Below are positions 8,761-64,000 of a stretch of 64,000 bases of DNA, in pieces. Source of the stretch: Acholoe squamosa (lineage: Eukaryota > Annelida > Polychaeta > Phyllodocida > Polynoidae); NCBI GenBank assembly GCA_949317995.1, contig OX439048.1:68577375-68641374 (forward strand), in the 5' to 3' direction. Position 1 is the first letter of the stretch; each line of letters starts with the position of its first letter. Both the position numbers and the translations under genes were made by a program. The notes below the pieces were generated by a model. The model did no database searches. It saw only the letters and a list, made by a program, of their open reading frames with translations, and was not told where the DNA came from.

Positions 8761-11213
8761 GGTGCACCCTAGCTTCAACCAGATCCCATCGGACACAGTG
8801 AAGGGCTAATGAGCTAGGTGCAAGGTTTACATTAGGCACCATTGAGCACGGTGAAGGGCTAGTAAGCTAGGTGCAAGGTTTACATTAGGCACCATTGGGC
8901 ACAGTGAAGGGCTAGTAAGCTAGGTGCAAGGTTTAATGGTAATTAGGTACCATTGGGCACAGTGAAGGCCTAGTAAGCTAGGTGCAAGGTTTAATGGTAC
9001 ATTAGGTACCATTGGGCACAGTGAAGGGCTAGTAAGCTAGGTGCAAGGTTTACATTAGGCACCATTGGGCACGGTGAAGGGCTAGTAAGCTAGGTGCAAG
9101 GTTTACATTAGGCACCATTGGGCATAGTGAAGGGCTAGTAAGCTAGGTGCAAGGTTTACATTAGGCACCATTGGGCACAGTGAAGGGCTAGTAAGCTAGG
9201 TGCAAGGTTTACATTAGGCACCATTGGGCACAGTGAAGGGCTAGTAAGCTAGGTGCAAGGTTTACATTAGGCACCATTGGGCACAGTGAAGGGCTAGTAA
9301 GCTAGGTGCAAGGTTTACATTAGGCACCATTGGGCATAGTGAAGGGCTAGTAAGCTAGGTGCAAGGTTTACATTAGGCACCATTGGGCATAGTGAAGGGC
9401 TAGTAAGCTAGGTGCAAGGTTTACATTAGGCACCATTGGGCACAGTGAAGGGCTAGTAAGCTAGGTGCAAGGTTTACATTAGGCACCATTGGGCACAGTG
9501 AAGGGCTAGTAAGCTAGGTGCAAGGTTTAATGGTACATAAGGCACCATTGGGCACAGTGAAGGGCTAGTAAGCTAGGTGCAAAGTTTAATGGTAATTAGG
9601 TACCATTGGGCACAGTGAAGGGCAGGTAAGCTAGGTGCAAGGTTTACATTAGGCACCATTGGGCACAGTGAAGGGGTAGTAAGCTAGGTGCAAGGTTTAC
9701 ATTAGGCACCATTGGGCACAGTGAAGGGCTAGTAAGCTAGGTGCAAGGTTTACATTAGGCACCATTGAGCACAGTGAAGGGGTAGTAAGCTAGGTGCAAG
9801 GTTTACATTAGGCACCATTGGGCACAGTGAAGGGCTAGTAAGCTAGGTGCAAGGTTTACATTAGGCATCATTTGGCACAGTGAAGGGCTAGTAAGCTAGG
9901 TGCAAGGTTTACATTAGGCACCATTGGGCACAGTGAAGGGGTAGTAAGCTAGGTGCAAGGTTTACATTAGGCACCATTGGGCACAGTGAAGGGCTAGTAA
10001 GCTAGGTGCAAGGTTTACATTAGGCACCATTGGGCACAGTGAAGGGGTAGTAAGCTAGGTGCAAGGTTTAATGGTACATTAGGCACCATTGGGCACAGTG
10101 AGGGGCTAGTAAGCTAGGTGCAATGTTTAATGGTAATTAGGTACCATTGGGCACAGTGAAGGGCAGGTAAGCTAGGTGCAAGGTTTACATTATGTACCAT
10201 TGGGCACAGTGAGGGGCTAGTAAGCTAGGTGCAATGTTTAATGGTAATTAGGTACCATTGGGCACAGTGAAGGGCAGGTAAGCTAGGTGCAAGGTTTACA
10301 TTATGTACCATTGGGCACAGTGAGGGGCTAGTAAGCTAGGTGCAAGGTTTACATTAGGCACCATTGGGCACAGTGAAGGGCTAGTAAGCTAGGTGCAAGG
10401 TTTACATTAGGCACCATTGGGCACAGTGAAGGGCTAGTAAGCTAGGTGCAAGGTTTAAAGGTACATTAGGCACCATTGGGCACAGTGAAGGGCTAGTAAG
10501 CTAGGTGCAAGGTTTACATTAGGCACCATTGGGCACAGTGAGGGGCTAGTAAGCTAGGTGCAAGGTTTAATGGTACATTAGGTACCATTGGGCACAGTGA
10601 AGGGCAGGTAAGCTAGGTGCAAGGTTTAATGGTACATTAGGTACCATTGGACACAGTGAAGGGCTAGTAAGCTAGGTGCAAGGTTTACATTAGCACCATT
10701 GGACACAGTGAAGAGCTAGTAAGCTAGGTGCAAGGTTTAATGGTAATTAGGTACCATTGGGCACAGTGAAGGGCCAGTAAGCTAGGTGCAAGGTTTAATG
10801 GTACATTAGGCACCATTGGACACAGTGAAGGGCTAGTAAGCTAGGTGCAAGGTTTACATTAGGCACCATTGGACACAGTGAAGGGCTAGTAAGCTAGGTG
10901 CAAGGTTTAATGGTACATTAGGCACCATTGGGCACAGTGAAGGGCTAGTAAGCTAGGTGCAAGGTTTACATTAGGCACCATTGGACACAGTGAAGGGCTA
11001 GTAAGCTATGTGCAAGGTTTACATTAGGCACCATTGGGCACAGTGAGGGGCTAGTAAGCTAGGTGCAAGGTTTACATTAGGCACCATTGGGCACAGTGAA
11101 GGGGTAGTAAGCTAGGTGCAAGGTTTAATGGTATGTTAGGCACCATTGGGCACAGTCAAGGGCTAGTAAGCTAGGTGCAAGGTTTAATGGTACATTAGGC
11201 ACCATTGGGCACA

Positions 11214-11373
11214 CACAGTTAAAAATAATTTTCTTGGAATCTTAAATAATCTTACCTGATAGACAAAACTACCAGTTTTAAGATTTTTTATTTTCTTAAA
11301 ACTGGTAGTTTTGTCCGCCACGTAAGATAATTTATCTTATTTTCTTAAATCAAGAAAAATATTTTTAGCTGTG
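11214..11373. mobile_element. Palindromic (foldback) MITE inserted in the minisatellite
   Basis: A 160-bp, AT-rich inverted repeat. The ends are CACAGTTAAAAATAATTTTC and the complement of CACAGCTAAAAATATTTTTC, and the centre carries aaaactaccagttttaag and its complement. The flanking array sequence, gggcacagtcaaggg in other units, is interrupted with a CA duplicated. This gives an exact empty-site comparison within the same array. Confidence 0.85.
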
Positions 11374-12119
11374 CAGTCAAGGGCTAGTAAGCTAGGTGCA
11401 AGGTTTACATTAGGCACCATTGGGCACAGTGAAGGGGTAGTAAGCTAGGTGCAAGGTTTACATTAGGCATCATTTGGCACAGTGAAGGGCTAGTAAGCTA
11501 GGTGCAAGGTATACATTAGGCACCATTGGGCACAGTGAGGGGCTAGTAAGCTAGGTGCAAGGTTTACATTAGGCACCATTGGGCACAGTGAAGGGGTAGT
11601 AAGCTAGGTGCAAGGTTTCCATTAGGCACCATTGGGCACAGTGAAGGGGTAGTAAGCTAGGTCCAAGGTTTACATTAGGCACCATTGGCACAGTGAAGGG
11701 CCAGTAAGCTAGGTGCAAGGTTTACATTAGGCACCATTGGGCACAGTGAGGGGCTAGTAAGCTAGGTGCAAGGTTTGATGGTACATTAGGCACCATTGGG
11801 CACAGTGAGGGGCTATAAAGCTAGGTGCAAGGTTTAATGGAACATTAGGCACCATTGGGCACAGTGAAGGGCTAGTAAGCTAGGTCCAAGGTTTACATTA
11901 GGCACCATTGGGCACAGTGAAGGGCTAGTAAGCTAGGTGCAAGGTTTAATGGAACATTAGGCACCATTGGGCACAGTGAGGGGCTATTAAGCTAGGTGCA
12001 AGGTTTAATGGAACATTAGGCACCATTGGGCACAGTGAAGGGCTAGTAAGCTAGGTGTAAGGTTTACATTAGGCACCATTGGGCACAGTGAAGGGCTAGT
12101 AAGCTAGGTGCAAGGTTTA

Positions 12120-15100
12120 CATTAGGCACTATTGGGTACAGTGAAGGGCTAGTAAGCTAGGTGCAAGGTTTAATGGTATGTTAGGCACCATTGGGCACAG
12201 TCAAGGGCTAGTAAGCAAGTTGCAAGGTTTAATGGTACATTAGGCACCATTGGGCACAGTGAAGGGCTAGTAAGCTAGGTGCAAGGTTTACATTAGGCAC
12301 CATTGGGCACAGTGAAGGGGTAGTAAGCTAGGTGCAAGGTTTACATTAGGCACCATTGGGCACAGTGAAGGGGTAGTAAGCTAGGTGCAAGGTTTAATGG
12401 TACATTAGGCACCATTGGGCACAGTGAGGGGCTAGTAAGCTAGGTGCAAGGTTTGATGGTACATTAGGCACCATTGGGCACAGTGAAGGGCCAGTAAGCT
12501 AGGTGCAAGGTTTAATGGTACATTAGGCACCATCAGGCACAGTGAAGGGCTAGTAAGCTAGGTGCAAGGTTTAATGGTACATTAGGCACCATTGGGCACA
12601 GTGAAGGGCTAGTAAGCTAGGTGCAAGGTTTACATTAGGCACCATTTGGCACAGTGAAGGGGTAGTAAGCTAGGTGCAAGGTTTACATTAGGCACCATTG
12701 GGCACAGTGAGGGGCTAGTAAGCTAGGTGCAAGGTTTAATGGTACATTAGGCACCCTTGGGCACAGTGAGGGGCTAGTAAGCTAGGTGCAAGGTTTGATG
12801 GTACATTAGGCACCATTGGGCACAGTGAGGGGCTATTAAGCTAGGTGCAAGGTTTAATGGAACATTAGGCACCATTGGGCACAGTGAAGGGCTAGTAAGC
12901 TAGGTCCAAGGTTTACATTAGGCACCATTGGGCACAGTGAAGGGCTAGTAAGCTAGGTGCAAGGTTTGATGGTACATTAGGCACCATTGGGCACAGTGAG
13001 GGGCTAGTAAGCTAGGTGCAAGGTTTAATGGAACATTAGGCACCATTGGGCACAGTGAAGGGCTAGTAAGCTAGGTCCTAGCTTTACATTAGGCACCATT
13101 GAGCACAGTGAGGGGCTACTAAGCTAGGTGCAAGGTTTAATGGTACATTAGGCACCATTGGGCACAGTGAAGGGCTAGTAAGCTAGGTGCAAGGTTTACA
13201 TTAGGCACCAATGGGCACAGTGAAGGGCTAGTAAGCTAGGTGCAAGGTTTAATGGTACATTATGCACCATCGGGCACAGTGAAGGGCTAATGAGCTAGGT
13301 GCAAGGTTTACATTATGTACCATTGGGCATAGTGAAGGGCTAGTAAGCTAGGTGCAAGGTTTACATTAGGCACCATTGGGCACAGTGAAGGGTTGGTAAG
13401 CTAGGTGTAAGGTTTACATTAGGCACCATTGGGCACAGTGAAGGGCTAGTAAGCTAGGTGCAAGGTTTAATGGTACATTAGGCACCATTGGGCACAGTGA
13501 AGGGCTAGTAAGCTAGGTGCAAGGTTTACATTAGGCACTATTGGGTACAGTGAAGGGCTAGTAAGCTAGGTGCAAGGTTTAATGGTATGTTAGGCACCAT
13601 TGGGCACAGTCAAGGGCTAGTAAGCTAGGTGCAAGGTTTAATGGTACATTAGGCACCACTGGGCACAGTGAAGGGCTAGTAAGCTAGGTGCAAGGTTTAC
13701 ATTAGGCACCATTGGGCACAGTGAAGGGGTAGTAAGCTAGGTGCAAGGTTTACATTAGGCACCATTGGGCACAGTGAAGGGGTAGTAAGCTAGGTGCAAG
13801 GTTTATATTAGGCACCATTGGGAACAGTGAAGGGCAGGTAAGCTAGGTGCAAGGTTTACATTAGGCACCATTGGGCACAGTGAGGGGCTAGTAAGCTAGG
13901 TGCAAGGTTTAATGGAAAATTAGGCACCATTGGGCACAGTGAAGGGCTAGTAAGCTAGGTCCAAGGTTTTCATTAGGCACCATTGGGCACAGTGAAGGGC
14001 AGGTAAGCTATGTGCAACGTTTAATGGTACATTAGGCACCATTGGGCACAGTGAAGGGCTAGTAAGCTAGGTGCAAGGTTTGATGGTACATTAGGCACCA
14101 TTGGGCACAGTGAGGGGCTAGTAAGCTAGGTGCAAGGTTTACATTAGGCACCAATGGGCACAGTGAAGGGCTAGTAAGCTAGGTGCAAGGTTTAATGGTA
14201 CATTATGCACCATTGGGCACAGTGAAGGGCTAGTAAGCTAGGTGCAAGGTTTAATGGTACATTATGCACCATCAGGCACAGTGAAGGGCTAATGAGCTAG
14301 GTGCAAGGTTTACATTATGTACCATTGGGCATAGTGAAGGGCTAGTAAGCTAGGTGCAAGGTTTACATTAGGCACCATTGGGCACAGTGAAGGGTTGGTA
14401 AGCTAGGTGTAAGGTTTACATTAGGCACCATTGGGCACAGTGAGGGGCAAGTAAGCTAGGTGCAAGGTTTACATTAGGCACCATTGGGCATAGTGAAGGG
14501 CTAGTAAGCTAGGTGTAAGGTTTACATTAGGCACCATTGGGCACAGTGAAGGGCTAGTAAGCTAGGTGCAAGGTTTACATTAGGCACTATTGGGTACAGT
14601 GAAGGGCTAGTAAGCTAGGTGCAAGGTTTAATGGTATGTTAGGCACCATTGGGCACAGTCAAGGGCTAGTAAGCAAGGTGCAAGGTTTAATGGTACATTA
14701 GGCACCATTGGGCACAGTGAAGGGCTAGTAAGCTAGGTGCAAGGTTTACATTAGGCACCATTGGGCACAGTGAAGGGGTAGTAAGCTAGGTGCAAGGTTT
14801 ACATTAGGCACCATTGGGCACAGTGAAGGGGTAGTAAGCTAGGTGCAAGGTTTAATGGTACATTAGGCACCATTGGGCACAGTGAGGGGCTAGTAAGCTA
14901 GGTGCAAGGTTTGATGGTACATTAGGCACCATTGGGCACAGTGAAGGCCTAGTAAGCTAGGTCCAAGGTTTACATTAGGCACCATTGGCACAGTGAAGGG
15001 CCAGTAAGCTAGGTGCAAGGTTTAATGGTACATTAGGCACCATCAGGCACAGTGAAGGGCTAGTAAGCTAGGTGCAAGGTTTAATGGTACATTAGGTACC

Positions 15101-17050
15101 ATTGGGCACAGTGAAGGGCTAGTAAGCTAGGTGCAAGGTTTACATTAGGCACCATTTGGCACAGTGAAGGGGTAGTAAGCTAGGTGCAAGGTTTACATTA
15201 GGCACCATTGGGCACAGTGAGGGGCTAGTAAGCTAGGTGCAAGGTTTAATGGTACATTAGGCACCCTTGGGCACAGTGAGGGGCTAGTAAGCTAGGTGCA
15301 AGGTTTGATGGTACATTAGGCACCATTGGGCACAGTGAGGGGCTATTAAGCTAGGTGCAAGGTTTAATGGAACATTAGGCACCATTGGGCACAGTGAAGG
15401 GCTAGTAAGCTAGGTCCAAGGTTTACATTAGGCACCATTGGGCACAGTGAAGGGCTAGTAAGCTAGGTGCAAGGTTTGATGGTACATTAGGCACCATTGG
15501 GCACAGTGAAGGGCTAGTAAGCTAGGTGCAAGGTTTAATGGAACATTAGGCACCATTGGGCACAGTGAAGGGCTAGTAAGCTAGGTCCTAGCTTTACATT
15601 AGGCACCATTGAGCACAGTGAGGGGCTAGTAAGCTAGGTGCAAGGTTTAATGGTACATTAGGCACCATTGGGCACAGTGAAGGGCTAGTAAGCTAGGTGC
15701 AAGGTTTACATTAGGCACCAATGGGCACAGTGAAGGGCTAGTAAGCTAGGTGCAAGGTTTAATGGTACATTATGCACCATCGGGCACAGTGAAGGGCTAA
15801 TGAGCTAGGTGCAAGGTTTACATTATGTACCATTGGGCATAGTGAAGGGCTAGTAAGCTAGGTGCAAGGTTTACATTAGGCACCATTGGGCACAGTGAAG
15901 GGTTGGTAAGCTAGGTGTAAGGTTTACATTAGGCACCATTGGGCACAGTGAAGGGCTAGTAAGCTAGGTGCAAGGTTTAATGGTACATTAGGCACCATTG
16001 GGCACAGTGAAGGGCTAGTAAGCTAGGTGCAAGGTTTACATTAGGCACTATTGGGTACAGTGAAGGGCTAGTAAGCTAGGTGCAAGGTTTAATGGTATGT
16101 TAGGCACCATTGGGCACAGTCAAGGGCTAGTAAGCTAGGTGCAAGGTTTAATGGTACATTAGGCACCACTGGGCACAGTGAAGGGCTAGTAAGCTAGGTG
16201 CAAGGTTTACATTAGGCACCATTGGGCACAGTGAAGGGGTAGTAAGCTAGGTGCAAGGTTTACATTAGGCACCATTGGGCACAGTGAAGGGGTAGTAAGC
16301 TAGGTGCAAGGTTTATATTAGGCACCATTGGGAACAGTGAAGGGCAGGTAAGCTAGGTGCAAGGTTTACATTAGGCACCATTGGGCACAGTGAGGGGCTA
16401 GTAAGCTAGGTGCAAGGTTTAATGGAAAATTAGGCACCATTGGGCACAGTGAAGGGCTAGTAAGCTAGGTCCAAGGTTTTCATTAGGCACCATTGGGCAC
16501 AGTGAAGGGCAGGTAAGCTATGTGCAACGTTTAATGGTACATTAGGCACCATTGGGCACAGTGAAGGGCTAGTAAGCTAGGTGCAAGGTTTGATGGTACA
16601 TTAGGCACCATTGGGCACAGTGAGGGGCTAGTAAGCTAGGTGCAAGGTTTACATTAGGCACCAATGGGCACAGTGAAGGGCTAGTAAGCTAGGTGCAAGG
16701 TTTAATGGTACATTATGCACCATCAGGCACAGTGAAGGGCTAATGAGCTAGGTGCAAGGTTTACATTATGTACCATTGGGCATAGTGAAGGGCTAGTAAG
16801 CTAGGTGCAAGGTTTACATTAGGCACCATTTGGCACAGTGAAGGGTTGGTAAGCTAGGTGTAAGGTTTACATTAGGCACCATTGGGCACAGTGAGGGGCA
16901 AGTAAGCTAGGTGCAAGGTTTACATTAGGCACCATTGGGCATAGTGAAGGGCTAGTAAGCTAGGTGCAAGGTTTACATTAGGCACCATTGGGCATAGTGA
17001 AGGGCTAGTAAGCTAGGTGCAAGGTTTACATTAGGCACCATTGAGCACAG
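12120..17050. repeat. Higher-order repeat of about 2.5 kb inside the minisatellite
   Basis: Rare variants recur in the same order at a constant distance. The word ctaggtcctagctttacatt is at 13071 and 15581, and the unit with gcaccactgggcac lies downstream of 13621 and of 16131, both 2510 bp apart. The unit with cactattgggtaca is at 12123 and again at 14581 (2458 bp, one unit fewer). So two consecutive ~2.5 kb blocks are near-identical down to private variants. Confidence 0.85.
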
Positions 17051-17975
17051 TGAAGGGCTAGTAAGCTAGGTGCAAGGTTTACATTAGGCACCATTGAGCA
17101 CAGTGAAGGGCTAGTAAGCTAGGTGCAAGGTATACATTAGGCACCATTGAGCACAGTGAAGGGCTAGTAAGCTAGGTGCAAGGTTTAAATTAGGCACCAT
17201 TGGGCATAGTGAAGGGCTAGTAAGCTAGGTGCAAGGTTTACATTAGGCACCATTGGGCACAGTGAAGGGCTAGTAAGCTAGGTGCAAGGTTTAATGGTAG
17301 ATTATGCACCATCGGGCACAGTGAAGGGCTAATGAGCTAGGTGCAAGGTTTACATTAGGCACCATTGAGCACAGTGAAGGGCTAGTAAGCTAGGTGCAAG
17401 GTTTACATTAGGCACCATTGGGCACAGTGAAGGGCTAGTAAGCTAGGTGCAAGGTTTAATGGTATATTAGCTACCATTGGGCACTGTGAAGGGCCAGTAA
17501 GCTAGGTGCAAGGTTTAATGGTACATTAGCTAACATTGGGCACAGTGAAGGGCTAGTAAGCTAGGTGCAAGGTTTACATTAGGCACCATTGGGCATAGTG
17601 AAGGGCTAGTAAGCTAGGTGCAAGGTTTAATGGTACATTAGGCACCATTGGGCACAGTGAGGGGCTACTAAGCTAGGTGCAAGGTTTACATTATGTACCA
17701 TTGGGCATAGTGAAGGGCTAGTAAGCTAGGTGCAAGGTGTAATGGTACATTAGGCACCATTGGGCACAGTGAGGGGCTAGTAAGCTAGGTGCAAGGTTTA
17801 CATTAGGCACCATTGGGCACAGTGAAGGGCTAGTAAGCTAGGTGCAAGGTTTACATTAGGCACCATTGGGCACAGTGAAGGGCTAGTAAGCTAGGTGCAA
17901 GGTTTAATGGTACATTAGCTACCATTGGGCACAGTGAGGGGCTAGTAAGCTACTTGCGAGGTTTAATGGAACATT

Positions 17976-36399: not shown

Positions 36400-38280
36400 C
36401 CCAGCAAATTGTCGTGATTCCTCGTCAACCTGTGTGAAGTGGCTCACACATGTTGCTAGATGGAACACGACGTCGCTATAGCACAAGATCACCAGGAATA
36501 GCAATGGTGGTGATCACATGGCCTCACCTCAGATGGCGAGGATGGTGATCACTCAGACTCACCAGGGATGGCGATGCAGGTGATCACTCACCTCACTAGA
36601 TGAAACACGCACCTCGTCATAGTGCATGTTCACCAGGGATGGCGAGGATCGTGATCACTCATCCTCACCAGGGATGGCAACATGAGTGATCACTCATCCT
36701 CACCAGGGATGGCGACATGAGTGATCACTCATCCTCACCAGGGATGGCGACATGAGTGATCACTCATCCTCACCAGGGATGGCGACATGAGTGATCACTC
36801 ACTTCGCTAGATGAGACGCACACCACGTCATAACGCATGTTCACCACAGATGGCAAGGATCGTGATCACTCACACTCACGGGGGATGGTCACTCAGGTGA
36901 TCATTCATCTCGCTAGATGAAACGCACACCATGCCATAATGCACATTCACCACGGTTTGCGAGGATCGTGATGACTCACACTCACCAGGGATGGCAAGGC
37001 GGTTGATCACTCACCTCGTTAGATGAAATGCGCACCACATCATAGCGCAGGTTCACCATGGATGGCGAGAGTGGTGATCACTCAGACTTACCAGTGATGG
37101 CGATGCTGGTGATCACTCATCTTGTTAGATGAAAAGCTCATGATCATCGACATTGGTAATCATGCAGCCTCACATCTGCCAGATCAATGTATGTTTTGCC
37201 AGAGAAGGTATTGCCATATGTATCTTCCCTCTAACCACAGACAAGGTGTTCGTGTAGATACTTCCTTATGTATTTTTCCTGTAACCAGAGAAAAGGTGTT
37301 TATGGATAGTTGCTTTTATTTTAGAGATACCTCTATCTAAATTCAATTGATATTTTCTCTATATAATCTTGTTTGATTCAACCCTGAAGTATTACATGGA
37401 AACCAGTGTGCAACAAAGCACATTTGATAAGTATGGGACTTATACTTCATGCCCACACTTCCTAGATAGGCTACATGTCTCAACAACTTTGGCAATGCTG
37501 GTGATAAGTTGCCATACTGAGTGAGAGTGAGTGACAGATGATGCAATCCTCAGAGAGCATTGACTTGGAGTGACACAAATTCACGTATTGAGTGAGACAA
37601 AGGCTGGCAATGGTGGTGATAAGTTGCCGTTCTGAGTGAGAGTGAGTGACAGATGATGCAATCCTCAGAGAGCATTGACATGGAGTGACACAAGTTCACG
37701 TATTGAGTGAGACCAATGTTGGCAATGGTAGTGATAAGTCGCCATTTTGTGTGAGAGTTGATGCCAGTGGCACGGGAGTGGTACATAATCACACAGTGAG
37801 TCAGATCCATGTTGGCGATGCTTGTGATAAGCCGCCATTCTGAGTGAGAGTTGACAGGCAGTGGCACATATTGACGGAGTGAGTGAGATCCATGTTGGCA
37901 ATGGTGGTGATAAGCTGCCATTCTGAGTGAAAGCTGACCGGGAGTGGTACATAATCACACAGTGAGTCAGATCCATGTTGGCGATGCTTGTGATAAGTCG
38001 CCATTCTGAGTAAGAGTTGACAGGCAGTGGCACATACTCACGCAGTGAGTTAGATCCATGTTGGCGATGGTGGTGATAAGTCACCATGCTTTGTGTGGGA
38101 TGACAAGGGGTGGCACATACTCACGCAGTGAGTGAGATCATGTTGGTGACTGTTGTGATAAATTGCCATGCCATGTGAGACTGACACACAGTGGCGAAAG
38201 ATGACGCAGTGAGTTATCACTCAGAAAGGAGTGACCATTGATGACCAATCATGGCGACAGATAACGACAATTTGCTGGGG
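36400..38280. mobile_element. Non-autonomous TIR element, about 1.88 kb, copy A
   Basis: Terminal inverted repeats CCCAGCAAATTGTCGT at 36400-36415 and its exact complement at 38264-38279. A second copy in the same orientation is at 51538-53658. The inside is built of two sub-repeat regions: about 36500-37120, with tgatcactca and caccagggatggcgac words, and about 37480-38130, with ~85-bp units containing gatccatgttggcgatg and gataagtcgccattctgag. The frames here are repeat-derived, with no transposase. I see no convincing target duplication, so the superfamily is unknown. Confidence 0.75.
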
Positions 38281-39537: not shown

Positions 39538-40339
39538 TTCCAGATAAAAGGTTCAGCCTATGAATTTTCAGATTTAAGCAACCTTAAGCATAACGTAAGC
39601 TTGGTTAATCACCATATAGTTTTTGAACTTTACTCAACTTAAACAATTTGAATAATTCAAGTTGCAGCATCAACACAGCTAAAATGAATCAATTTGATTT
39701 TTTTTCTTGAAATCGCTTGAATATGAAGGTTAATTATGCACATGCCAGAGAAGTTGACAATGCATTTTTAACATGTAAACATTTGCTATATATGTGCCCA
39801 CTGTATACGATAATACAACCGTCATAAGCCTACAACCCATGATAAAAGGGGCCAGGACTCAAAGTGCTGCCAACTGGTGTCTAGATCAGGAACCAGAGTC
39901 TCCATAATAGCACAGAGGACTACTGCGTGGGTGCGTAACCATGGTTTTGTACGATGGCTGAATGCAGTTCTGCAGAGCTGTATCCATGCATCTTGATCTT
40001 GAAAATTGCAATATTGATTTCAATTCAACCTAGACCCAAAATCCAGCGCCTAGAATCTTGGGCCCAGGATCTGCTGCATTATCGACCGATGACGTATATG
40101 GTACTCAAACACCATGGTTCCACTATGCTGCAATGAAGCTTACATCAAAACAATAATTACATTTATTATAAATTTAATTTGTATAATAGACACAACTAGA
40201 ACAACAAAAATTCAGGTTTCGAAGTTTTATTTCACCATAATGTTTGTAGTATGCATTTGATCACAACGTTTCGGCCATATGGGCCTTCATCAGGTGATCA
40301 TTATTATAAATACACTGCTGCTCAGCAAGCTGTATATCA
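39538..40339. other. Non-coding stretch; remnant of a dispersed element near its right end
   Basis: At about 40262-40302, cacaacgtttcggcc and gggccttcatcaggtgatc form a motif I associate from memory with interspersed repeats in many animals; the family is not assigned. No exon supported. Confidence 0.35.
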
Positions 40340-41058
40340 GAAACATGGATACAGCCAGGTGTATCAATGGTGAGAAACATGGATACAGCCAGGTGCATCA
40401 ATGGTGAGAAACATGGATACAGCCAGGTGTATCAATGGTGAGAAACATGGATACAGCCAGGTGTATCAATGGTGAGAAACATGGATACAGGCAGGTGTAT
40501 CAATGGTGAGAAACATGGATACAGCCAGGTGTATCAATGGTGAGAAACATGGATACAGCCAGGTGTATCAATGGTGTGAAACATGGATACAGCCAGGTGT
40601 ATCAATGGTGAGAAACATGGATACAGCCAGGTGTATCAATGGTGAGAAACATGGATACAGCCAGGTGTATCAATGGTGAGAAACATGGATACAGCCAGGT
40701 GTATCAATGGTGAGAAACATGGATACAGCCAGGTGTATCAATGGTATGAAACATAGATACAGGCAGGTGTATCAATGGTGAGAAACATGGATACAGCCAG
40801 GTGTATCAATGGTGAGAAACATGGATACAGCCAGGTGTATCAATGGTGAGAAACATGGATACAGCCAGGTGTATCAATGGTGAGAAACATGGATACAGCC
40901 AGGTGCATCAATGGTGAGAAACATGGATACAGCCAGGTGTATCAATGGTGAGAAACATGGATACAGCCAGGTGTATCAATGGTGTGAAACATGGATACAG
41001 CCAGGTGTATCAATGGTGAGAAACATGGATACAGGCAGGTGTATCAATGGTGAGAAAC
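40340..41058. repeat. Minisatellite, 34-bp unit, about 21 copies
   Basis: The unit is gaaacatggatacagccagg followed by tgtatcaatggtga. Copies differ at only a few positions (gcatca, ggcagg, tgtgaaa). Confidence 0.96.
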
Positions 41059-41227
41059 ACTTATTATTTTGAAGTCCTTTGGCATGGCATGTTCATCTAG
41101 AATACCTTAGGATGCTTCCCTGTTAATAACTCGACATAGCACCATTGGATTCTATGCTAACAAGGTATGCAAAGCCCCAGGTATTTCGGACAACTTATTC
41201 AAATCCTTCATATACATTGGCTTCTAC

Positions 41228-41477: not shown

Positions 41478-43030
41478 GCTATATACTGTTACACAGTAGC
41501 TGTTAAGGCAGAGTCTGCTTGGCATAGATGCCCATTGCAGTACAAGGGATAGAAGGCTATAATATAGCTGTTATACAGTAGCTGTTAAGGCATAGACTGC
41601 TTGGCATAGGTGCCCATTGCAGTACAAGGGATAGAAGGCTATAATATAGCTGTTACACAGTAGCTGTTATGGCATAGACTGCTTGGCATAGGTGCCCATT
41701 GCAGTACAAGGGATAGAAGGCTATAATATAGCTGTTATACAGTAGCTGTTATGGCATAGACTGCTTGGCATAGGTGCCCATTGCAGTACAAGGGATAGAA
41801 GGCTATAATATAGCTGTTATACAGTAGCTGTTAAGGCATAGACTGCTTGGCATAGGTGCCCATTGCAGTACAAGGGATAGAAGGCTATAATATAGCTGTT
41901 ATACAGTAGCTGTTATGGCATAGACTGCTTGGCATAGGTGCCCATTGCAGTACAAGGGATAGAAGGCTATAATATAGCTGTTATACAGTAGCTGTTATGG
42001 CATAGACTGCTTGGCATAGGTGCCCATTGCAGTACAAGGGATAGAAGGCTATAATATAGCTGTTATACAGTAGCTGTTAAGGCATAGACTGCTTGGCATA
42101 GGTGCCCATTGCAGTACAAGGGATAGAAGGCTATAATATAGCTGTTACACAGTAGCTGTTATGGCATAGACTGCTTGGCATAGGTGCCCATTGCAGTACA
42201 AGGGATAGAAGGCTATAATATAGCTGTTATACAGTAGCTGTTATGGCATAGACTGCTTGGCATAGGTGCCCATTGCAGTACAAGGGATAGAAGGCTATAA
42301 TATAGCTCTTACACAGTAGCTGTTATGGCATAGACTGCTTGGCATAGGTGCCCATTGCAGTACAAGGGATAGAAGGCTATAATATAGCTCTTACACAGTA
42401 GCTGTTATGGCATAGACTGCTTGGCATAGGTGCCCATTGCAGTACAAGGGATAGAAGGCTATAATATAGCTGTTACACAGTAGCTGTTATGGCATAGACT
42501 GCTTGGCATAGGTGCCCATTGCAGTACAAGGGATAGAAGGCTATAATATAGCTGTTATACAGTAGCTGTTATGGCATAGACTGCTTGGCATAGGTGCCCA
42601 TTGCAGTACAAGGGATAGAAGGCTATAATATAGCTGTTATACAGTAGCTGTTATGGCATAGACTGCTTGGCATAGGTGCCCATTGCAGTACAAGGGATAG
42701 AAGGCTATAATATAGCTGTTATACAGTAGCTGTTATGGCATAGACTGCTTGGCATAGGTGCCCATTGCAGTACAAGGGATAGAAGGCTATAATATAGCTG
42801 TTATACAGTAGATGTTATGGCATAGACTGCTTGGCATAGGTGCCCATTGCAGTACAAGGGATAGAAGGCTATAATATAGCTGTTATACAGTAGCTGTTAT
42901 GGCATAGACTGCTTGGCATAGGTGCCCATTGCAGTACAAGGGATAGATAGTTATATACTGTTACACAGTAGCTATATAGCTGTTACACAGTGGCTGTTAT
43001 GACGGAGTCAGCTTGCCATAGGTGGCCATG
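41478..43030. repeat. Minisatellite, 82-bp unit, about 18 copies
   Basis: The unit starts ataatatagctgttatacag and passes through ggcatagactgcttggcata and gcagtacaagggatagaagg. Spacing is exactly 82 bp from 41559 to 42871. Copies differ at only about four sites (tatacag/cacacag, taagg/tatgg, ctgtt/ctctt). The first unit (41478) and the last (after 42947) are diverged. Confidence 0.97.
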
Positions 43031-48960: not shown

Positions 48961-49132
48961 AGGACAAGGTCCAAGCTGTAATGCCTCCTTCAGTGTATAT
49001 CTCTTACAGCTTTGTCCTCCCATTATACACATACAAAGAATATTTCATTATGTGTTCTCTTGTATATATCAAGACCTGAAGTAGCTCTAATACTAATAGT
49101 GAGATATATTTTCATTTTTTGGACAGATCGGC

Positions 49133-50857
49133 ATGATGTCGAGTGATGATGGGTACAGTGAGGAGGTGAGCAGGGACAGTCCGCAGGCAGATTCTCCATC
49201 TTCACCTTCTCCATCAGAACAACATGTCAGCCAGCTACTGCACACCATTCTCCACTCCCTCCATTGCCTTGAACACAGAATGAGCTCTCTGGAAGAAAAT
49301 CAGAAGCAATTAATGAAAAACCATGAAATGCTCCTCAAAACATTGAATGTCACTGATTCAGCAAGTAATGGCGGGGTTGATGATTCACGCGCTATCAGTC
49401 ACTGTCTAGCTGAACCACTCCATGTCGCCCCTGACCATTATTATACTGAAACAGCCAAGACACGACAAGAAAATGAAATTCATAGTTTGGGTGAACATAC
49501 ATCCCTCAGCTCTATGTGTGATGATAGTGGCTTCCACGATAACGAAAACTGCCACTCTACCATCGCTACTTCTATAATGACACCAGAAGTTATTATCAAC
49601 AACAGGACAGTGACCAAGCACTCAGATGCTGAAACTTTTCATCATAATGGTTACCATGGAGAACATGAACCAGGCACTGACAGGAAGGTGACACAGCAGC
49701 CGAGGCTGGAAGATGATGAAGACACTCTTATTAAGAACATTGAGGCACATATTATCCCAGAGACCATGACAGAATTCAACAAGCCGAAAGTGTCAGCTGC
49801 CTCGCAACCATCTGAAGCAACCAAAGGGTCTGATACAATCACAAGGTGTGATCCCATACCCTCTGTACAACCAGAGGCTGCAGTCACAAGGTGTGATCCC
49901 ATACCCTCCGTACAACCAGAGGCTGCAGTCACAAGATGTGATCCCATACCCTCCGTACAACCAGAGGCTGCAGTCACAAGGTGTGATCCCATACCCTCCG
50001 TACAACCAGAGGCTGCAGTCACAAGGTGTGATCCCATACCCTCCGTACAACCAGAGGCTGCAGTCACAAGGTGTGATCCCATACCCTCCGTACAACCAGA
50101 GGCTGCAGTCACAAGGTGTGATCCCATACCCTCTGTACAACCAGAGGCTGCAGTCACAAGGTGTGATCCCATACCCTCCGTACAACCAGAGGCTGCAGTC
50201 ACAAGGTGTGATCCCATACCCTCCGTACAACCAGAGGCTGCAGTCACAAGGTGTGATCCCATACCCTCCGTACAACCAGAGGCTGCAGTCACAAGGTGTG
50301 ATCCCATACCCTCTGTACAACCAGAGGCTGCAGTCACAAGGTGTGATCCCATACCCTCCGTACAAACAGAGGCTGCAGTCACAAGGTGTGATCCCATACC
50401 CTCCGTACAACCAGAGGCTGCAGTCACAAGGTGTGATCCCATACACTCCGTACAACCAGAGGCTGCGGTCTGTGCAGCACAATGTGGAGACCTGTCAGAC
50501 ACACACCACACCAGTCCAACCCCAGGTGTGTACGAACCATCAGCAGGACACCTCAGGTCTTACAAACAGACAGAGGTAGTAGAGGAGGTTATAGTACCGT
50601 GTCATGTACAGCCGCTCGGACTGGGGCGCCTTACACAAGGCGACACATGCCAAACTGAACATGTAGAAACAACTGGTAACTTTACTCTGGGAGTTGTTTC
50701 AGAAAGAGATGTGGCAGGATCTGTGGATGAAGTAACAATGAGAGCGATCAGTATGAGCAAGATAGACGGCTTGCTTCACGGAGACACTGAGGATGAGCTC
50801 GATGGCAATAACGAGTACATGACTTTTTCTGTTAATGAGCATCTCTCTCCAAATGAA
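49133..50857 (+). CDS. NLR exon 1 of the coding region (575 codons)
   Basis: An acceptor TTTTTTGGACAG ends at 49126, and ATGATG follows six bases later. The exon ends at GAA|GTAAGT (donor at 50858), phase 0. The frame is open beyond the donor to 50995, but the tail is Lys/Ile-rich and intron-like. It encodes MMSSDDGYSEEV and onward: a Ser/Pro/Asp-rich start, a leucine-heptad stretch from QHVSQLLHTIL to MLLKTLN, polar linker, the 15-residue repeats, and a second polar region ending NEHLSPNE. No catalytic motif is here. Apart from the repeats, the sequence looks disordered. Confidence 0.8.
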
Positions 50858-53800
50858 GTAAGTGATTTAATGTTATTATGTCATAAAGATAAAGGGCTGG
50901 ATAAAAAAAAAACTTTGTCGCAGATTTTGGTTATTTGGTCAAAGTTTGTTAACATCTTGATTGCTTTATTTCATAAGGAAAATTTAGAGTATTAGATAGA
51001 TAGTTATGTCATATTTTCCTTCATGCTATTTACCTCATATATAAGTTTTATCACTCGCTTATGTGGTGATCACGCAGACATTTCCACTCAAACAATTATA
51101 TATTTCTCAGACTGTTGTCGATTCCAACGATATCATCAATTTTTCTGTCAAAGGTTGAACAAGAAGCTGAGACTCTCCTAAAAGCCCATTGGTTGGACTT
51201 GGTGGAGCTTGACCCAGCCCATGTTCAGCACGTCTTCACCCAGCGGTACCTGAAGCCGTACCTGGGTACAATGAGTGACCTCCTGCACCAGATCCTGAGG
51301 CACCAACAGCCACACCTACACCAGGCGCTGTGGGGGGTCACAGCGGGAATAGCACCGAGTGTGTTCTACAAGGCATTTGGATATGACCCAGATAGACAAG
51401 AACGAGGTAAGTAGAAGCCAGTAGTGTGAAATGTTGGGGTCGATTTGATGACAATTGGTTGCCCATTGCATCACTATAATTATTAGGTAAAATTGATATT
51501 CTAATTCCATACATTTTTATACTTCAAGAAGCCACCCCAGCAAATTGTTGTGACTCCTCGTCAACCTATGGCCCTAGACCCCTAAAATCGACATAGTGAC
51601 ATGAGCTTTTTATTGCTTAGTGACATGAGACATGGCCAATTTATTAAAATCGACACAGGGACATGACCATTCCTTAAAATCGACAAAGGGACATGACAAT
51701 TTCTTAAAATCGACATGATGACATGGGCATTTCTTAAAATCGACATGGGACATGGGGACCCCCCATCAAGGGCCCCCAACCTGTGTGAAGTGGCTCACAC
51801 ATGTCACTAGATGGAACACGACATTGCTATAACACAAGATCACCAGGAATAGCAATGGTGGTGATGAGATGGCGAGGATGGTGATCACTCAGACTAACCA
51901 GGGATGGTGATGCGGGTGATCACTCACCTCGTTAGATGAAACACACACCTCGTCATAGCGCATGTTCACCAGGGATGGCGGGGATCGTGATCACTCATCC
52001 TCACCAGGGATGGCGACATGAGTGATCAGTCATCCTCACCAGGGATGGCGACATGAGTGATCACTCATCCTCACCAGGGATGGCGACATGAGTGATCACT
52101 CACTTTGCTAGATGAGACAAACACCACGTCATAACGCACGTTCACTATGGATGGCAAGGATCGTGATCACTCACACTCACGGGGATGGTCACTCGGGTGA
52201 TCACTCACCTTGCTAGATGAAATGCGTACCTCGTGATAGCACAGGTTCACCACAGATGGTGAGGATCTTGATCACCCACACTCACCAGGGATGGCGACAC
52301 GAGTGATCACTCATCTCGCTAGATGAAACGCACACCATGCCATAGTGCACATTCACCACAGTTGGCGAGGATGGTGATGACTCACACTTACCAGGGATGG
52401 CAAGGCAGTTGATCACTCACCTCGCTAGATGAAATGCGCACCACGTCATAGCGCAGGTTCACCATGGATGGTGAGAGTGGTGATCACTCAGACTCACCAG
52501 TGATGGCGACGCTGGTGATCACTTACCTTCTTAGATGAAAAGCTCATGATCATCGACACTGGTAATCATGCAGCCTCACATCTGCCAGATCAAAGTATGT
52601 TTTGCCAGAGAAGGTATTGCCATATGTATCTTCCCTCTAACCACAGACAAGGTGTTCATGTAGATATTTCCCTATGTATTTTTCCTGTAACCAGAAAAAA
52701 GGTGTTTATGGATAGTTGCTTTCATTTTAGAGATACCTCTATCTAAATTCAATTGATGTTTTCTCTATATAATCTTGTTTGATTCAACTCTGAAGTATTA
52801 CATGGAAATCAGTGTGAAACAAAGCACATTTGATACATATGGGACTTATACTTCATGCCAACACTTCCTAGATAGGCTACATGTTGAACAGTGGTGCTGT
52901 CTCAACAACTTTGGCAATGCTGGTGATAAGTTGCCATTCTGAGTGAGAGTGAGTGACAGATGATGCAATCCTCAGAGAGCATTGACTTGGAGTGACACAA
53001 ATTCACGCATTGAGTGAGACCAATGTTGCCAATGGTGGTGATAAGTCACCATTTTGTGTGAGAGTTGATGACAGTGGCACACACTCACACAGCGAGTGAC
53101 ATCCATGTCAGCGATGGTGGTGATAAGTCGCCATTTTGAGAGAAGATTTACTAGGAGTGACACAAACTCACGTAGTGAGTGAGAGCCATGTGGCAATGCA
53201 GGTGAAAAGTTGCCATTCTGAGTGAGAGTTGACAGACAGTGGCACATATTGACGGAGTGAGTGAGATCAATGTTGGCGATGGTGGTGATAAGCTGCCATT
53301 CTGAGTGAGAGTTGACTGGAAGTAGCGCATACTCATGCAGGGAGTGAGATCCATGTTGGCGATGGTTGTGAGAAGCCGCCATTCTGAACGAGAGTTGACA
53401 GGCAGTGGCACATACTCAGGCAGTGAGTAAGATCCATGTTGGCGATGGTGGTGATAAGTCACCATGCTTTGTGAGGGATGACAAGGGGTGGCACATACTC
53501 ACACAGTGAGTGAGATTATGTTGGCGACTGTTGTGATAAAACGCCATGCCATGTGAGACTGACACACAGTTTCAAAAGATGACGCAGTGAGTTATCACTC
53601 AAAAAAGAGTCACTATTGATGACCAATCATGGCGACAGATAACGACAGTTTGTTGGGACAGGTCCTATATGGAAGCAAAGGTGCTGGAGAAAGTAAAACT
53701 GATTGCCACTATATGTGAACCTGGCAAATTTGTATGAATACAACAAAAGTCCTGAACCTATACTATGTAATTTTCTCATTTATGTACATATTGATAAATT

Positions 53801-56800
53801 CCAGATTTTGTCATATCCGAATTCTCATCCAAGCTGAAGGAAACAATTAAGAACATGAAATCTAGTCAGGCCGACAAGATTGGTGACCGGTCAATTCAAC
53901 TAGATACAGATTACATCCAGCTCCGTGTGTTTGGAGGGAAGAGAAGCAGAGGTTTGAAGAAACATATTCTTATAGATCATTTGTTTGTAATTTATTAACG
54001 AGTTGTAGATACAGCAAAAGAGTAGCTTTAAAAGGATTTTGGGTGGCCTATTTCTATGATGATAAAACCTGATTTTGAAAAGATTATTGAAACTTTTACA
54101 AGAAACCTTCTGTCATTGTGAAAAGAAATCTGTGGTTATTGCATGCTTTTTGATTGATCTCCCCATATCAAAGGCCTTTCTGATATCCCTAAATACATCC
54201 TGTCTACATTACTATTCATTATCATGATTTGGTTATTACTGTAACCAAAACAGTGCTTGTCATTTTCTTTTCCTATGTTTCAATACATATTGCTCAGCCC
54301 GGGCTACAATACCTGCAGGAATGCGCCACATATCGAGCGATGACTCAGACTCTGACTCTGACTCCGATACTGATACAGTTGATGGCTCAGTGGCTGCAGT
54401 AGCAGAGATACTGGAGGAGGAGGAGACTGAGTGGGAGTTACCTTATATACATCAGCAGCGGGAGACGGGGGGCGGGGGTCAGGATGACATCCCGGTGATG
54501 GAGGTGTTAGAGGAGGGTGGACATGTACAGACAGGCAGGATGGTACTTATTAAGGGCAGACCTGGGGTGGGGAAAACCACCACCTGTCAGTGGCTCTATA
54601 GGCAATGGGCGCTAGGACAGTTTGCTACCAGGTCAGTACCGCACTTCTATTCATGATGATAAGTGATTTACTTAGCAACGAAATTAAAAAGGAAGCTTTC
54701 TAATTTGCCTCAGGTGATTATTTGCGACTTTAATAATGTCCACGTCATCGTAACAAGTGAATTTTTGGGTGCTTTTATGTTCAATACAATTTCAAGCATT
54801 TGGCTCATACAATGATAATTAGACATGAATCCACCCCAAGTATTCCTATGAGACATGACTACAATATTATATAAACCATGAGTGCAATACAATACATTAT
54901 TGTAAAATAATTTGGGTTGTAAAGAGTCATTAAAATGTTATGAAACTCTAGAGGATCCACAGCAGTTTTTAATTGTACAGAATGTGCTTTTTTGTTGGTC
55001 CTTATCAATATTTCCTCTTCAAGGTTCTCGATGTTCTTTGTCATCCACATCCGTCACTTGATCCACATAAAGGACCATGATATGTCGCTGTACGGGTTGT
55101 TAAGTAACTACTGCCTGGCAGTGACGAGAGCTGGAGGCCTTCCAGCTTACATGAAGCCATGGATGGAATTCAATGAGGAACACATTCTTCTTGCAATTGG
55201 TGAGTTTACAAATGTCCACTTCAAGATTTCAAGTCATATTGTGCCTCTAGACCTTGAAGGAGTGTGATACATTAATGTACTTTGCCCCTTTTGTTATTAT
55301 GATATTTGAAAGAAGTCCATGTGAGTGATGCCACTAGTGCCAGTGGCCCACTTACCTGATAATGTTGCCTCATTGCATTACACCCATTGAAATTAGTGAT
55401 GTTGTCTACAGGATATAACATTTTAGGGTTTGCCCTTTGTGGTTTTGATTTAATTTCAGGACCATTTTAATTAGATTTCAGAACCTTTCTATATTTTTTT
55501 TGTACAACTAGAGTACTTTGCCTGGTTTCATATACGGTTTCCTTAATGTTAGATTTGTTTACCTCCATGGGTATACATAAGATGACTTGTTTTGTTTTCA
55601 GATGGTATTGATGAGATGCCAGATTTCGCGGATTGTCTCAAGTCCCCCTGTGAAGTGACATCACTACATCAACATGCCCAACCTCTGCAAATCATCGCAA
55701 ATATCCTGAACAGGTCCCTACTTCCCACTGCTACTGTTATACTGCTGTCTCGGTAAGTCACCAATAACATGGTTCTCCACCAATGTTAGACATGGTTCTC
55801 CACCAATGTTAGACATGGTTCTCCACCAATGTTAGACATGGTTCTCCACCAATGTTAGACATGGTTCTCCACCAATATTAGACATGGTTCTCCACCAATG
55901 TTAGACATGGTTCTCCACCAATGTTAGATTACAACAATGATCTTACTGGTACCCTTGTCTTGGTGAATCTAGCCTAAACATTGTCACTTATTGTATAAGC
56001 CATACATCCGTATAAGCTACATGGTCACAACTTTATAAGCCTTACCTACATTCCCCCCACTGACAGCAGTGGAAACAACCCTGTAAAAGATAAAGCACAT
56101 TGCCTGTTTGGCATAGGCCAGGTTTTCTAGATTGTAACAAACTATTTCTTAAATTTTATAGTTAAGTAAGAGAACAGCCACAGATATATGTGATCTGCTG
56201 CTGTACTCCTCAGAGCTTATAGTTGCTCTTAATTATTCCGCAATGGAATGAGCTATACTTCCAACGATTACGGGTTACCGACCCATGGTTTGTTCAGGAT
56301 AAATAAAGGAAATTGAATGAATGAATGGACTGTTAACATTTCTGTCCTAACAGAGGCTTCACCCAGCTGAAGGAGATACCGTTTGACCGGATGATGGAGA
56401 TTAAGGGATTGTCCCCACCCGGCATCTTACAGTTTGTACACAACTTTGCACCTGAACACAGAGTCCAAGACATCCACAGTAAGTATATGTATACCTGTGA
56501 CATGAGCTTAGGCAGTGGTCAATATTCATCAGAGGAGGTGGTGGGTTTGAGTAGGAGGGGTGGATATTTGACCCCTCTGAGGTGGGGCATGAACAGAAGA
56601 TTTTGGCCAACATTGCACAGAGTGGAAGATATCCACAGTAGGTCCACTACATGTATAATGAGATTAGGGAGCAGTCATTATATAACAGGGAAGTTGTTAG
56701 GTTTGAAGGGGTTAAACAAAAATTAGACCCCTCCTCAGGAGGGATATAAGAAATGTTAACCCCTCTTGACCGGCCTGTGTGCTACTATAGTTCCAAGAGG

Positions 56801-57184
56801 GGCGTGTTCTGTGCCTCCACCAGCGGAAAATGTTGACCACTCTCGGGAGAGGGTATAAAAAGTGTCACCCCTCCCCTGTTGAAAAATGACCCTAAGATTC
56901 CACTGATTCCACTGATATTTCTTTCTGGCTTAACATTTATGAGCTTAAGTATAGTATCAAACAAGAGTAGAAAACTGCTCGGTAATGTCGGTGCGCACTA
57001 TAATCGTTTTTGTGTAAATTTATAAATTGTCATTTCAGACATATTGTGGCGTAACCCTCTCCTCATGTCGGTGTGCACAATAACAGTGTACTGCTTGCTG
57101 ATCTGCTCTGCCCTGGCCGATGACATCACACTGCCCGGGCTGGACCTCAAGACCTACACCCGCATCTACTCCTTTATCATCATG
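49133..57184 (+). CDS. NACHT-domain NLR-type STAND ATPase, 5' and central part (8 exons, 3' end beyond window)
   Basis: Joining eight exons at GT-AG sites with compatible phases gives 1019 codons. In order: Ser/Asp/Pro-rich N-terminus with a coiled coil (residues about 30-72), 14 repeats of 15 residues (about 236-446), a helical segment of unassigned fold (576-660), an acidic Asp/Ser insert (about 722-735), then NACHT: Walker A GRPGVGKT (795-802), Walker B LLAIDGIDE (D at 879), sensor LLSR (about 926-929), GLSPPGI helical region and NPLL winged-helix motif (about 974). By family, such proteins are cytosolic ATP/dNTP-binding switches that oligomerise in innate immune sensing. No Death, CARD, Pyrin or TIR domain is clearly recognisable at the N-terminus, and the expected LRR or other sensor region would lie beyond 64000. 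Start: the ATG at 49133 follows an acceptor by 6 bp, so a leader exon upstream is likely. The exact start and exon 3 donor are the weakest points. Confidence 0.85.
49841..50475 (+). repeat. Coding minisatellite: 14 copies of a 45-bp unit
   Basis: The unit encodes AVTRCDPIPSVQPEA. Copies start every 45 bp from 49846 to 50431 and differ at very few bases (ccg/ctg in the Val codon context, one aaacag giving QTEA, one acactc giving IHSV). One Cys per unit gives 14 evenly spaced cysteines. The 45-bp length keeps frame for any copy-number change. Two minus-strand frames and another plus-strand frame (NQRLQSQGVIPYPPY) are also open, a by-product of homogenisation. Confidence 0.95.
51154..51406 (+). 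CDS. NLR exon 2
   Basis: Acceptor TTTTTCTGTCAAAG ends at 51153 and donor CGAG|GTAAGT is at 51407; phase 0 in, phase 1 out. It encodes VEQEAETLLKAHWLDLVELD and onward to FYKAFGYDPDRQERG. The amphipathic helical pattern (LLKAHWLDLVE, VQHVFTQRYL, LLHQILRH) could be a diverged CARD or Death fold, but I cannot assign it. An earlier AG at 51110 would put a stop in the phase-0 frame, so 51154 is preferred. Confidence 0.8.
51538..53658. mobile_element. Non-autonomous TIR element, copy B, in NLR intron 2
   Basis: Homologous to 36400-38280 end to end, same orientation, with ends CAGCAAATTGTTGT and the complement of CCAACAAACTGTCGT. It holds the 215-bp insertion, several deletions or duplications of sub-repeats, and many substitutions. 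Apart from the edges it fills most of the intron between 51407 and 53804. Confidence 0.75.
51568..51782. mobile_element. Insertion inside TIR element copy B
   Basis: Comparison with copy A (36400 on) shows a 215-bp extra segment flanked by a duplicated CAACCT (51562-51567 and 51777-51782). It contains about five copies of a 32-35 bp unit (ttcttaaaatcgacatgg type). The ends carry short inverted ggccct and agggcc. It is an insertion nested in an element nested in the NLR intron. Confidence 0.65.
53805..53951 (+). CDS. NLR exon 3
   Basis: Acceptor ATTGATAAATTCCAG ends at 53804; the proposed donor is AGAG|GTTTGA at 53952, a weak site but the one that keeps the frame (phase 1 in, phase 1 out). 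It encodes DFVISEFSSKLKETIK and then LDTDYIQLRVFGGKRSR, the strand that normally precedes the NACHT P-loop region. A later GTAATT at 53987 would break the frame into exon 4. Confidence 0.7.
54298..54631 (+). CDS. NLR exon 4, with the NACHT Walker A motif
   Basis: Acceptor TATTGCTCAG ends at 54297 (an alternative CTGCAG ends at 54318 in the same phase). Donor CCAG|GTCAGT is at 54632. It encodes an acidic run (SSDDSDSDSDSDTDT), a Glu-rich linker, then GRMVLIKGRPGVGKTTTCQW, the P-loop, at 54555-54578. Confidence 0.88.
55024..55199 (+). CDS. NLR exon 5 (NACHT)
   Basis: Acceptor ATTTCCTCTTCAAG and donor AATTG|GTGAGT; phase 2 in, phase 1 out. It encodes RFSMFFVIHIRHL, matching the hydrophobic strand plus Arg that follows the P-loop in NACHT domains, and ends ILLAI-, the first half of Walker B. 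Confidence 0.87.
55602..55752 (+). CDS. NLR exon 6 (NACHT Walker B and sensor 1)
   Basis: Acceptor TTTGTTTTCAG and donor CTCG|GTAAGT; phase 1 in, phase 2 out. It encodes DGIDEMPDF, with the acidic Walker B residues, and ends ATVILLSR, the sensor strand with its conserved Ser-Arg. Confidence 0.9.
55757..55930. repeat. Intronic tandem repeat, 23-bp unit, about 7 copies
   Basis: The unit is tagacatggttctccacc followed by aatgt. It begins within a few bases of the exon 6 donor. Confidence 0.9.
56354..56478 (+). CDS. NLR exon 7 (NACHT helical domain 1)
   Basis: Acceptor TCTGTCCTAACAG and donor CCACA|GTAAGT; phase 2 in, phase 1 out. It encodes GFTQLKEIPFDRMMEIKGLS and then PPGILQFVHNFAPEH: the conserved 'E-I-x-G-L/F-s' turn after the sensor strand and the next helix. 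Confidence 0.88.
56445..56760. repeat. Diverged tandem duplication of the exon 7 donor region
   Basis: The segment cacagagtccaagacatccacagtaag and what follows (about 56457-56600) is repeated as cacagagtggaagatatccacagtagg at about 56616. Both copies continue into a MITE-like stretch with tcatta/caatatt, and gtgggtttga or gttaggtttga. The second copy is intronic and lacks an upstream acceptor. Confidence 0.6.
56667..56892. mobile_element. Harbinger-like MITE in NLR intron 7
   Basis: Related to the element at 19008: the left end gggagcagtcattatataacag matches its terminus, and the inner words tgctactatag and aagaggggcg are shared. The right end is ccctgttgaaaaatgaccc. Flanks TTA and TAA are not identical, consistent with decay. 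Confidence 0.65.
57039..57184 (+). CDS. NLR exon 8 (winged-helix region), last exon seen
   Basis: Acceptor AAATTGTCATTTCAG and donor CATG|GTGAGG; phase 1 in, phase 0 out. It encodes ILWRNPLLMSVCTITVYCLL and onward to LKTYTRIYSFIIM. The NPLL motif followed by a hydrophobic helix and the '-x-Y-x-x-i' ending is typical after NACHT in NLRs. Confidence 0.88.
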
Positions 57185-63100: not shown

Positions 63101-64000
63101 TGGTTGCAGCTTATGGAATTCTCCCAATGTCGGGTGCAGCTTGTGTGTGGTTACATCTTATAGAATTCCCCAAATGTCAGGGTGCAGCTTGTGTGTGGTT
63201 ACAGCTTATAGAATTCTCCCAATGTCAGGGTGCAGCTTGTTTGTGGTTACAGCTTATAGAAGTCTCCCAATGTCAGGGTGCAGCTTGTTTGTGGTTACAG
63301 CTTATAGAATTCTCCCAATGTCAGGGTCAGCTTGTTTGTGGTTACAGCTTATAGAATTCTCCCAATGTCAGGGTCAGCTTGTGTGTGGTTACATCTTATA
63401 GAATTCTCCCAATGTCAGGGTGCAGCTTGTTTGTGGTTACAGCTTATAGAATTCTCCCAATGTCAGGGTGCAGCTTGTGTGTGGTTACAGCTTATAGAAT
63501 TCTCCCAATGTCAGGGTGCAGTTTGTTTGTGGTTACAGCTTATAGAATTCTCCCAATGTCAGGGTTCAGCTTGTTTGTGGTTACAGCTTATAGAATTCTC
63601 CCAATGTCAGGGTGCAGCTTGTTTGTGGTTGTGGCTTATAGAATTCTCCCAATGTCAGGGTGCAGCTTGTGGTTACAGCTTATAGAATTCTCCCAATGTC
63701 AGGGTGCAGCTTGTGGTTACAGCTTATAGAATTCTCCCAATGTCAGGTACAGCTTGTTTGTGGTTACAGCTTATAGAATTCTCCCAATGTCAGGGTCAGC
63801 TTGTGGTTGTGGCTTATAGAATTCTCCCAATGTCAGGGTGCAGCTTGTTTGTGGTTACATCTTATAGAATTCTCCCAATGTCAGGGTGCAGCTTGTTTGT
63901 GGTTACAGCTTATAGAATTCTCCCAATGTCAGGGTGCAGCTTGTTTGTGGTTGTGGCTCATAGAATTCTCCCAATGTCAGGGTTCAGTTTGTGGTTACAG
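57185..64000. repeat. Intronic minisatellite, about 48-bp unit, about 140 copies, runs off the window
   Basis: From about 57330 the unit is gcttatagaattctcccaat, gtcagggtgcagcttgtttg, tggttaca, with a ggttgtgg variant and short forms lacking ttgtttg. Every intact unit has an EcoRI site. The 48-bp length keeps several plus-strand frames open for hundreds of codons (LIEFSQCQGAACLWLQ). These frames shift wherever a unit is 47 or 44 bp and have no start or splice support. The sequence just before the array (57205-57330) holds single-copy relatives of the unit (gcggcttatag, gtgtggctta, gtgcagcttacagatttctc), the likely seed. Confidence 0.95.

Follow-up and report, generated by a model that had tools for sequence, protein, structure and literature searches.

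Known Proteins and Genes With Tandem Coding Repeats

Tandem peptide repeats placed ahead of a NACHT domain have been described in the zebrafish NLR-B30.2 (NLR-C) proteins, where in groups 2-4 a peptide motif some 30 residues long is repeated several times at the N-terminus and the number of repeats varies among the genes (PMC4852459, PMC11192531). An earlier note on the DNA described here had held that repetitive N-termini are not a standard feature of NLRs, a statement that proves too strong in the light of the zebrafish groups. Another comparable system is HNWD of Podospora, in which a STAND-class NTPase is combined with a coding repeat array; recognition specificity is governed there by the repeats, which are of the WD type, the array is unstable and undergoes concerted evolution, and the vast majority of 143 spontaneous mutants had rearranged repeat arrays (PMC2873952). 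In amphioxus, minisatellites termed “mirages” cross the exon-intron boundary of their host genes and are unstable in length (PMC3087553).

Here we describe a locus from the polychaete Acholoe squamosa in which a 45-bp minisatellite of 14 units lies in a long open exon upstream of exons encoding a NACHT domain. It was found in the window, by which we mean the whole 64,000-bp stretch of DNA that was analysed. Our preferred reading, to which we assign a probability of about 0.62, is that the array is a coding minisatellite which would encode a spacer, disordered and of variable length, separating a predicted coiled coil from the NACHT domain in an NLR-type gene. Mucin arrays are secreted and glycosylated, whereas the array described here would reside in a presumably cytosolic NTPase. 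An exonic tandem array is also reported for the mucin-type minisatellite of MUC2 (PMC2065792).

The likeness to the zebrafish NLR-C repeats appears to be one of architecture, in that peptide repeats stand in tandem on the N-terminal side of a NACHT domain. The unit here is 15 instead of about 30 residues long, and the zebrafish NACHT domain sits in one large exon together with FISNA, whereas here it is spread across exons 4-7 and FISNA (PF14484) is absent among the ten Pfam families listed for the spliced model. With HNWD our locus shares the combination of a STAND-class NTPase with a coding repeat array; however, its units are 15 residues long, probably disordered and N-terminal to NACHT, unlike the WD units of Podospora. 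Like the mirages it is found in an animal gene, but it lies inside the exon at 49133-50857 and is thus not a mirage in that sense. In the open-licence literature, mostly judged by titles and the opening lines of abstracts, we found no earlier description of an animal NLR that carries a coding minisatellite, and among open-licence records that pair “NACHT” with “minisatellite” no title dealt with this subject.

Predicted Gene Structure and the NACHT Domain

On the plus strand, splice sites and reading frame outline an eight-exon model at 49133-57184 with seven GT-AG introns, agreeing phases and 1019 codons without a stop. Exon 1 (49133-50857) reads 575 codons from the first ATG and would encode an acidic N-terminus, a coiled coil, the array and an acidic tail. 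Exon 2 (51154-51406), placed by splice sites and phase and ending at the same position as in the earlier note, encodes a helix-rich segment that matches no Pfam family, and exon 3 (53805-53951) contains a pre-NACHT segment and the weakest splice site of the model as judged by eye, the donor GAG|GTTTGA. Exon 4 (54298-54631) encodes an acidic Ser-Asp stretch and then GRPGVGKTTT, which we take to be the Walker A motif. NACHT continues through exon 5 (55024-55199) and exon 6 (55602-55752), whose junction yields LLAIDGIDEM, presumably a Walker B-type motif, and ends in exon 7 (56354-56478). Exon 8 (57039-57184) is still reached by the NLRP6 alignment, which extends here beyond the Pfam NACHT. The C-terminus lies outside the window, because intron 8 enters a 48-bp array that begins at 57339 and stops at 63992, just short of the last base of the window.

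In the spliced model Pfam identifies NACHT (PF05729) over residues 789-960 with an E-value of 9.6e-17 and a score of 61.7 bits, the cut-off being 26.7, and the call of a NACHT protein made in the earlier note is thereby confirmed. When the last 444 residues were compared with solved structures, NLRP6 was the best match (E 7.2e-12), with NLRP3 at 1.1e-11. In total, 36 of the 39 rows had an E-value of 0.0014 or below, 34 of them named NLRs and two labelled “Uncharacterized protein”; the remaining three (E 0.25 to 1.1) were one ribosome factor and two plant NRC2 rows. The NACHT NTPase domain marks the predicted protein as NLR-type, and any C-terminal leucine-rich repeats would lie beyond the window, which the gene leaves within intron 8. 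The exon 4 open frame alone gave no match to solved structures at E <=0.1. The Ser-Asp run that exon 4 encodes ahead of Walker A reads SSDDSDSDSDSDTDT and may be acidic or phosphorylated.

In the whole 1019-residue model and in its pieces, no Pfam family of the Death-fold, CARD, PYD, BIR or TIR type appeared at E <=10, a negative to be read with the fact that HMMER filters discard most weak matches, and on these searches a Death-fold N-terminus was rejected for the eight exons modelled. Ten pieces submitted separately to Pfam, namely six open frames outside the gene (a subset of the window open frames lying outside tandem repeats), both exon 1 flanks, exon 2 and exon 3, were all without a match. 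For exon 2, a single-sequence structure model gave five helices with a mean pLDDT of 50.6, too poor to assign a fold.

The 45-bp Array

Unit-by-unit comparison resolves the array into 14 head-to-tail units of 45 bp without indels (49839-50468, plus strand), coding for 14 x TRCDPIPSVQPEAAV, and TRF reports it at 49839-50470 with a period of 45, 14.0 copies, 98% matches and 0% indels. The codon register set by exon 1 is 49841-50470, corresponding to residues 237-446. The in-frame repeat of 14 x 15 residues proposed in the earlier note is therefore real, the 45-bp period keeping the frame, and each unit has the one Cys and three Pro ascribed to it; the end of the array had been set at 50475, 5 bases too far. 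The array is wholly exonic, starting 706 bp past the ATG and ending 389 bp before the exon 1 donor. With units of 10-100 bp in tandem and a period divisible by three, within an open exon that its sequence suggests to be coding, it has the characters of a coding minisatellite.

Eight of the 14 units are identical to the consensus and seven substitutions are spread over the other six, one each in copies 1, 3, 7, 11 and 12 and two in copy 14, leaving 623 of 630 bases in agreement with the consensus. At the residue level 12/14 units read TRCDPIPSVQPEAAV, the changes being P to T in copy 12 and P to H in copy 14. The proposal that such near-identical copies reflect recent expansion or homogenisation is supported. 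Copy 14, the final and most altered unit, is what would be expected if homogenisation acts on the inner copies and spares the edges, and the amphioxus globin minisatellite displays the same pattern of inner copies homogenised relative to the edges (PMC3087553).

The copy number refers to one assembled allele, and assemblies are known to go wrong where repeats are nearly identical (PMC6868369). The real array might consequently be longer or shorter than the assembled one, having been collapsed or expanded, which would be compatible with any of the other readings; however, variants occur in 6/14 units, and therefore the array is not a single unit copied throughout, so that we consider such an artefact improbable.

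Synonymous changes account for 5/7 of the substitutions when counted by copies and for 3/5 of the distinct ones, against an expectation of 0.27. The excess has a P of 0.13 for distinct changes and of 0.019 for copies, which are non-independent, and one of the variable sites is a CpG; it may be a weak sign that purifying selection acts on the unit. The 45-bp unit is also open in other frames, with a plus-strand frame of 269 aa (49770-50579) and two on the minus strand of 302 aa (49651-50559) and 233 aa (49793-50494). These extra open frames, which together cover 49651-50579 on both strands, look like by-products of the array.

Is Exon 1 Coding and Joined to the NACHT Exons?

The open frame that spans exon 1 extends from 49103 to 50995, and the 365 non-repeat codons between the first ATG and the donor contain no stop. 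The chance of such a stretch is about 3e-9 given the dinucleotides of the exon flanks, and 7e-11 given chosen nearby non-coding stretches, both figures being extrapolated from simulated stretches of 100 codons. A codon score trained on the 444 codons of exons 2-8 of the same gene model was positive in the predicted frame over the whole of both array flanks (0.066 and 0.079) and negative in the remaining five of six frames. Taken in 90-base non-repeat steps, the predicted frame had the highest score of the three forward frames in 10/11 and was positive in 9/11; in the step at 49410-49499 a different forward frame scored best. Over the array the predicted frame has a neutral score (-0.010), below that of another forward frame (0.200).

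From splice consensus, phase and codon score we infer that exon 1 and the NACHT exons belong to one gene; the earlier note had claimed as much, and the splice sites and phase support it. The exon 1 donor at 50858 is the consensus GAA|GTAAGT and matches exon 2 in phase 0, and past it the codon score drops below zero (-0.141). These observations speak against a different arrangement, in which exon 1 with its array would come from a gene other than that of the NACHT exons, or the array would be partly or wholly spliced out, and which we regard as quite unlikely. In its favour, the frame remains open for 45 codons beyond the donor, and third-position GC is lower in the exon 1 flanks (0.42 and 0.40) than in exons 2-8 (0.58), which might fit an exon from another gene or a young sequence. 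Every unit of the array further contains splice-like AAG|GT and CACAAG| sites, and therefore partial skipping of the array is conceivable. Worked out by hand from positions, an AAG|GT to CACAAG| pair, if spliced, would delete whole units in frame, whereas other inner pairs such as AAG|GT to GCAG| would remove 38 + 45k bases and shift the frame.

Just ahead of the first ATG there is an acceptor-like AG at 49125-49126, preceded by a T-rich tract, which may point to an additional exon upstream of exon 1.

A Possible Spacer Between Coiled Coil and NACHT

On the N-terminal side of the array, residues 30-71 (49220-49345, plus strand) are predicted to form a coiled coil of six heptads. Its heptad score of 10.2, obtained with a home-made measure devised after the heptads had been spotted by eye, was reached by 0/500 shuffles of exon 1 and by 6/5000 shuffles of the segment itself. 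The surroundings are acidic, with a net charge of -23 over residues 1-235 and of -16 over residues 446-575. The peptide in between (residues 236-445, the array within one residue) contains 19% Pro and 7% Cys and carries a charge of -14, a composition from which it is most likely intrinsically disordered.

Our preferred reading of these features is that slippage or unequal exchange amplified a 45-bp stretch of a long first coding exon in this repeat-rich DNA, and that the amplified stretch would have been retained because 45 divides by three and the frame is without a stop. If the gene is expressed as modelled, the product of the array would be a proline-rich, negatively charged and disordered spacer of 210 residues, tethering the N-terminal coiled coil to the NACHT ATPase and the helices that precede it. 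Together with the adjoining acidic segments it may form a flexible tether some hundreds of residues long, whose length would be set by the copy number and in which change would be tolerated. The coiled coil would then be a probable oligomerisation or partner-binding module, placed where other NLRs carry a Death-fold domain. The NACHT of other NLRs oligomerises on activation, and the same may be supposed for the present one.

The array could also play a more active part, each unit serving as a short linear motif for partner binding and the array as a multivalent scaffold that sets the avidity or clustering of the NLR, with the copy number tuning the signal. Near-identical, proline-rich units with one Cys apiece and the slight synonymous excess would suit such a scaffold. 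However, exon 1 has no match in Pfam, either within the whole model or with its two flanks, nor among solved structures at E <=1, and recent expansion explains the homogeneity of the units just as it does for nearby arrays outside exons, which leaves the scaffold a rather unlikely proposal. Multivalent binding or cysteine cross-linking by the array, as the earlier note had suggested, may occur, though none of the present results favours it; a reducing cytosol would disfavour lasting disulfides. Very unlikely, in our estimation, is a further extension of this thought, in which the 14 Cys-bearing units would cluster a coiled-coil NLR through many weak bonds or redox cross-links and their fast-changing length would set the activation threshold of an innate sensor differently between individuals.

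Should the array be translated, it would be a clear instance of a widespread local minisatellite process that has reached an innate immune sensor and changed the architecture of its N-terminus; the protein concerned has a predicted coiled coil and lacks a recognised Death-fold. The number of copies would be easy to genotype, so that the relation between array length and NLR behaviour could be tested directly. As a passive spacer, the array would be an ordinary coding minisatellite.

Tandem Repeats in the Window and the Origin of the Array

Tandem repeats occupy 51.5% of the window (32,972 of 64,000 bases). Their units measure between 2 and more than 100 bp, and among them is a 9.2-kb array of 53-bp units at 8786-17965. 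Homogeneity equal to that of the exon 1 array is found outside exons at 40339-41059 (34 bp, 97%) and 41481-42973 (82 bp, 98%), as well as in intron 6, where seven copies of a 23-bp unit (55767-55928, 98%) begin 15 bases past the end of exon 6. Given this repeat content and three equally homogeneous arrays outside exons, neither the array nor its homogeneity needs an immune explanation, and its special significance is weakened. A local minisatellite process can explain why the array is present and why its copies are so alike, and its persistence within an exon can be put down to the frame.

The abundance of repeats, along with periods divisible by three that also occur outside the exons of the gene (21, 18/36 and 48/144 bp), would also suit an array that is translated yet functionless, and persists only since it leaves the frame unbroken. 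We think such a neutral passenger unlikely, as there is a weak synonymous excess and an insertion of 210 residues would hardly leave the spacing within the protein unaffected. A disordered spacer of variable length is the reading that we retain.

Other repeated sequences were noticed in the window. Two copies of an element of about 2 kb are located at 36400-38279 and 51536-53657, the second within intron 2 of the NLR gene, and agree with each other at about 91-97% over those matching pieces that were listed. The element has terminal inverted repeats (CCCAGCAAATTGT...), which match perfectly over 15 bases in the first copy and imperfectly in the second, and both copies are full of internal minisatellites; it looks like a non-autonomous DNA transposon. 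Finally, an inverted repeat of about 267 bp with 84% identity, formed by 1801-2067 and 2305-2572, is possibly a fold-back element.
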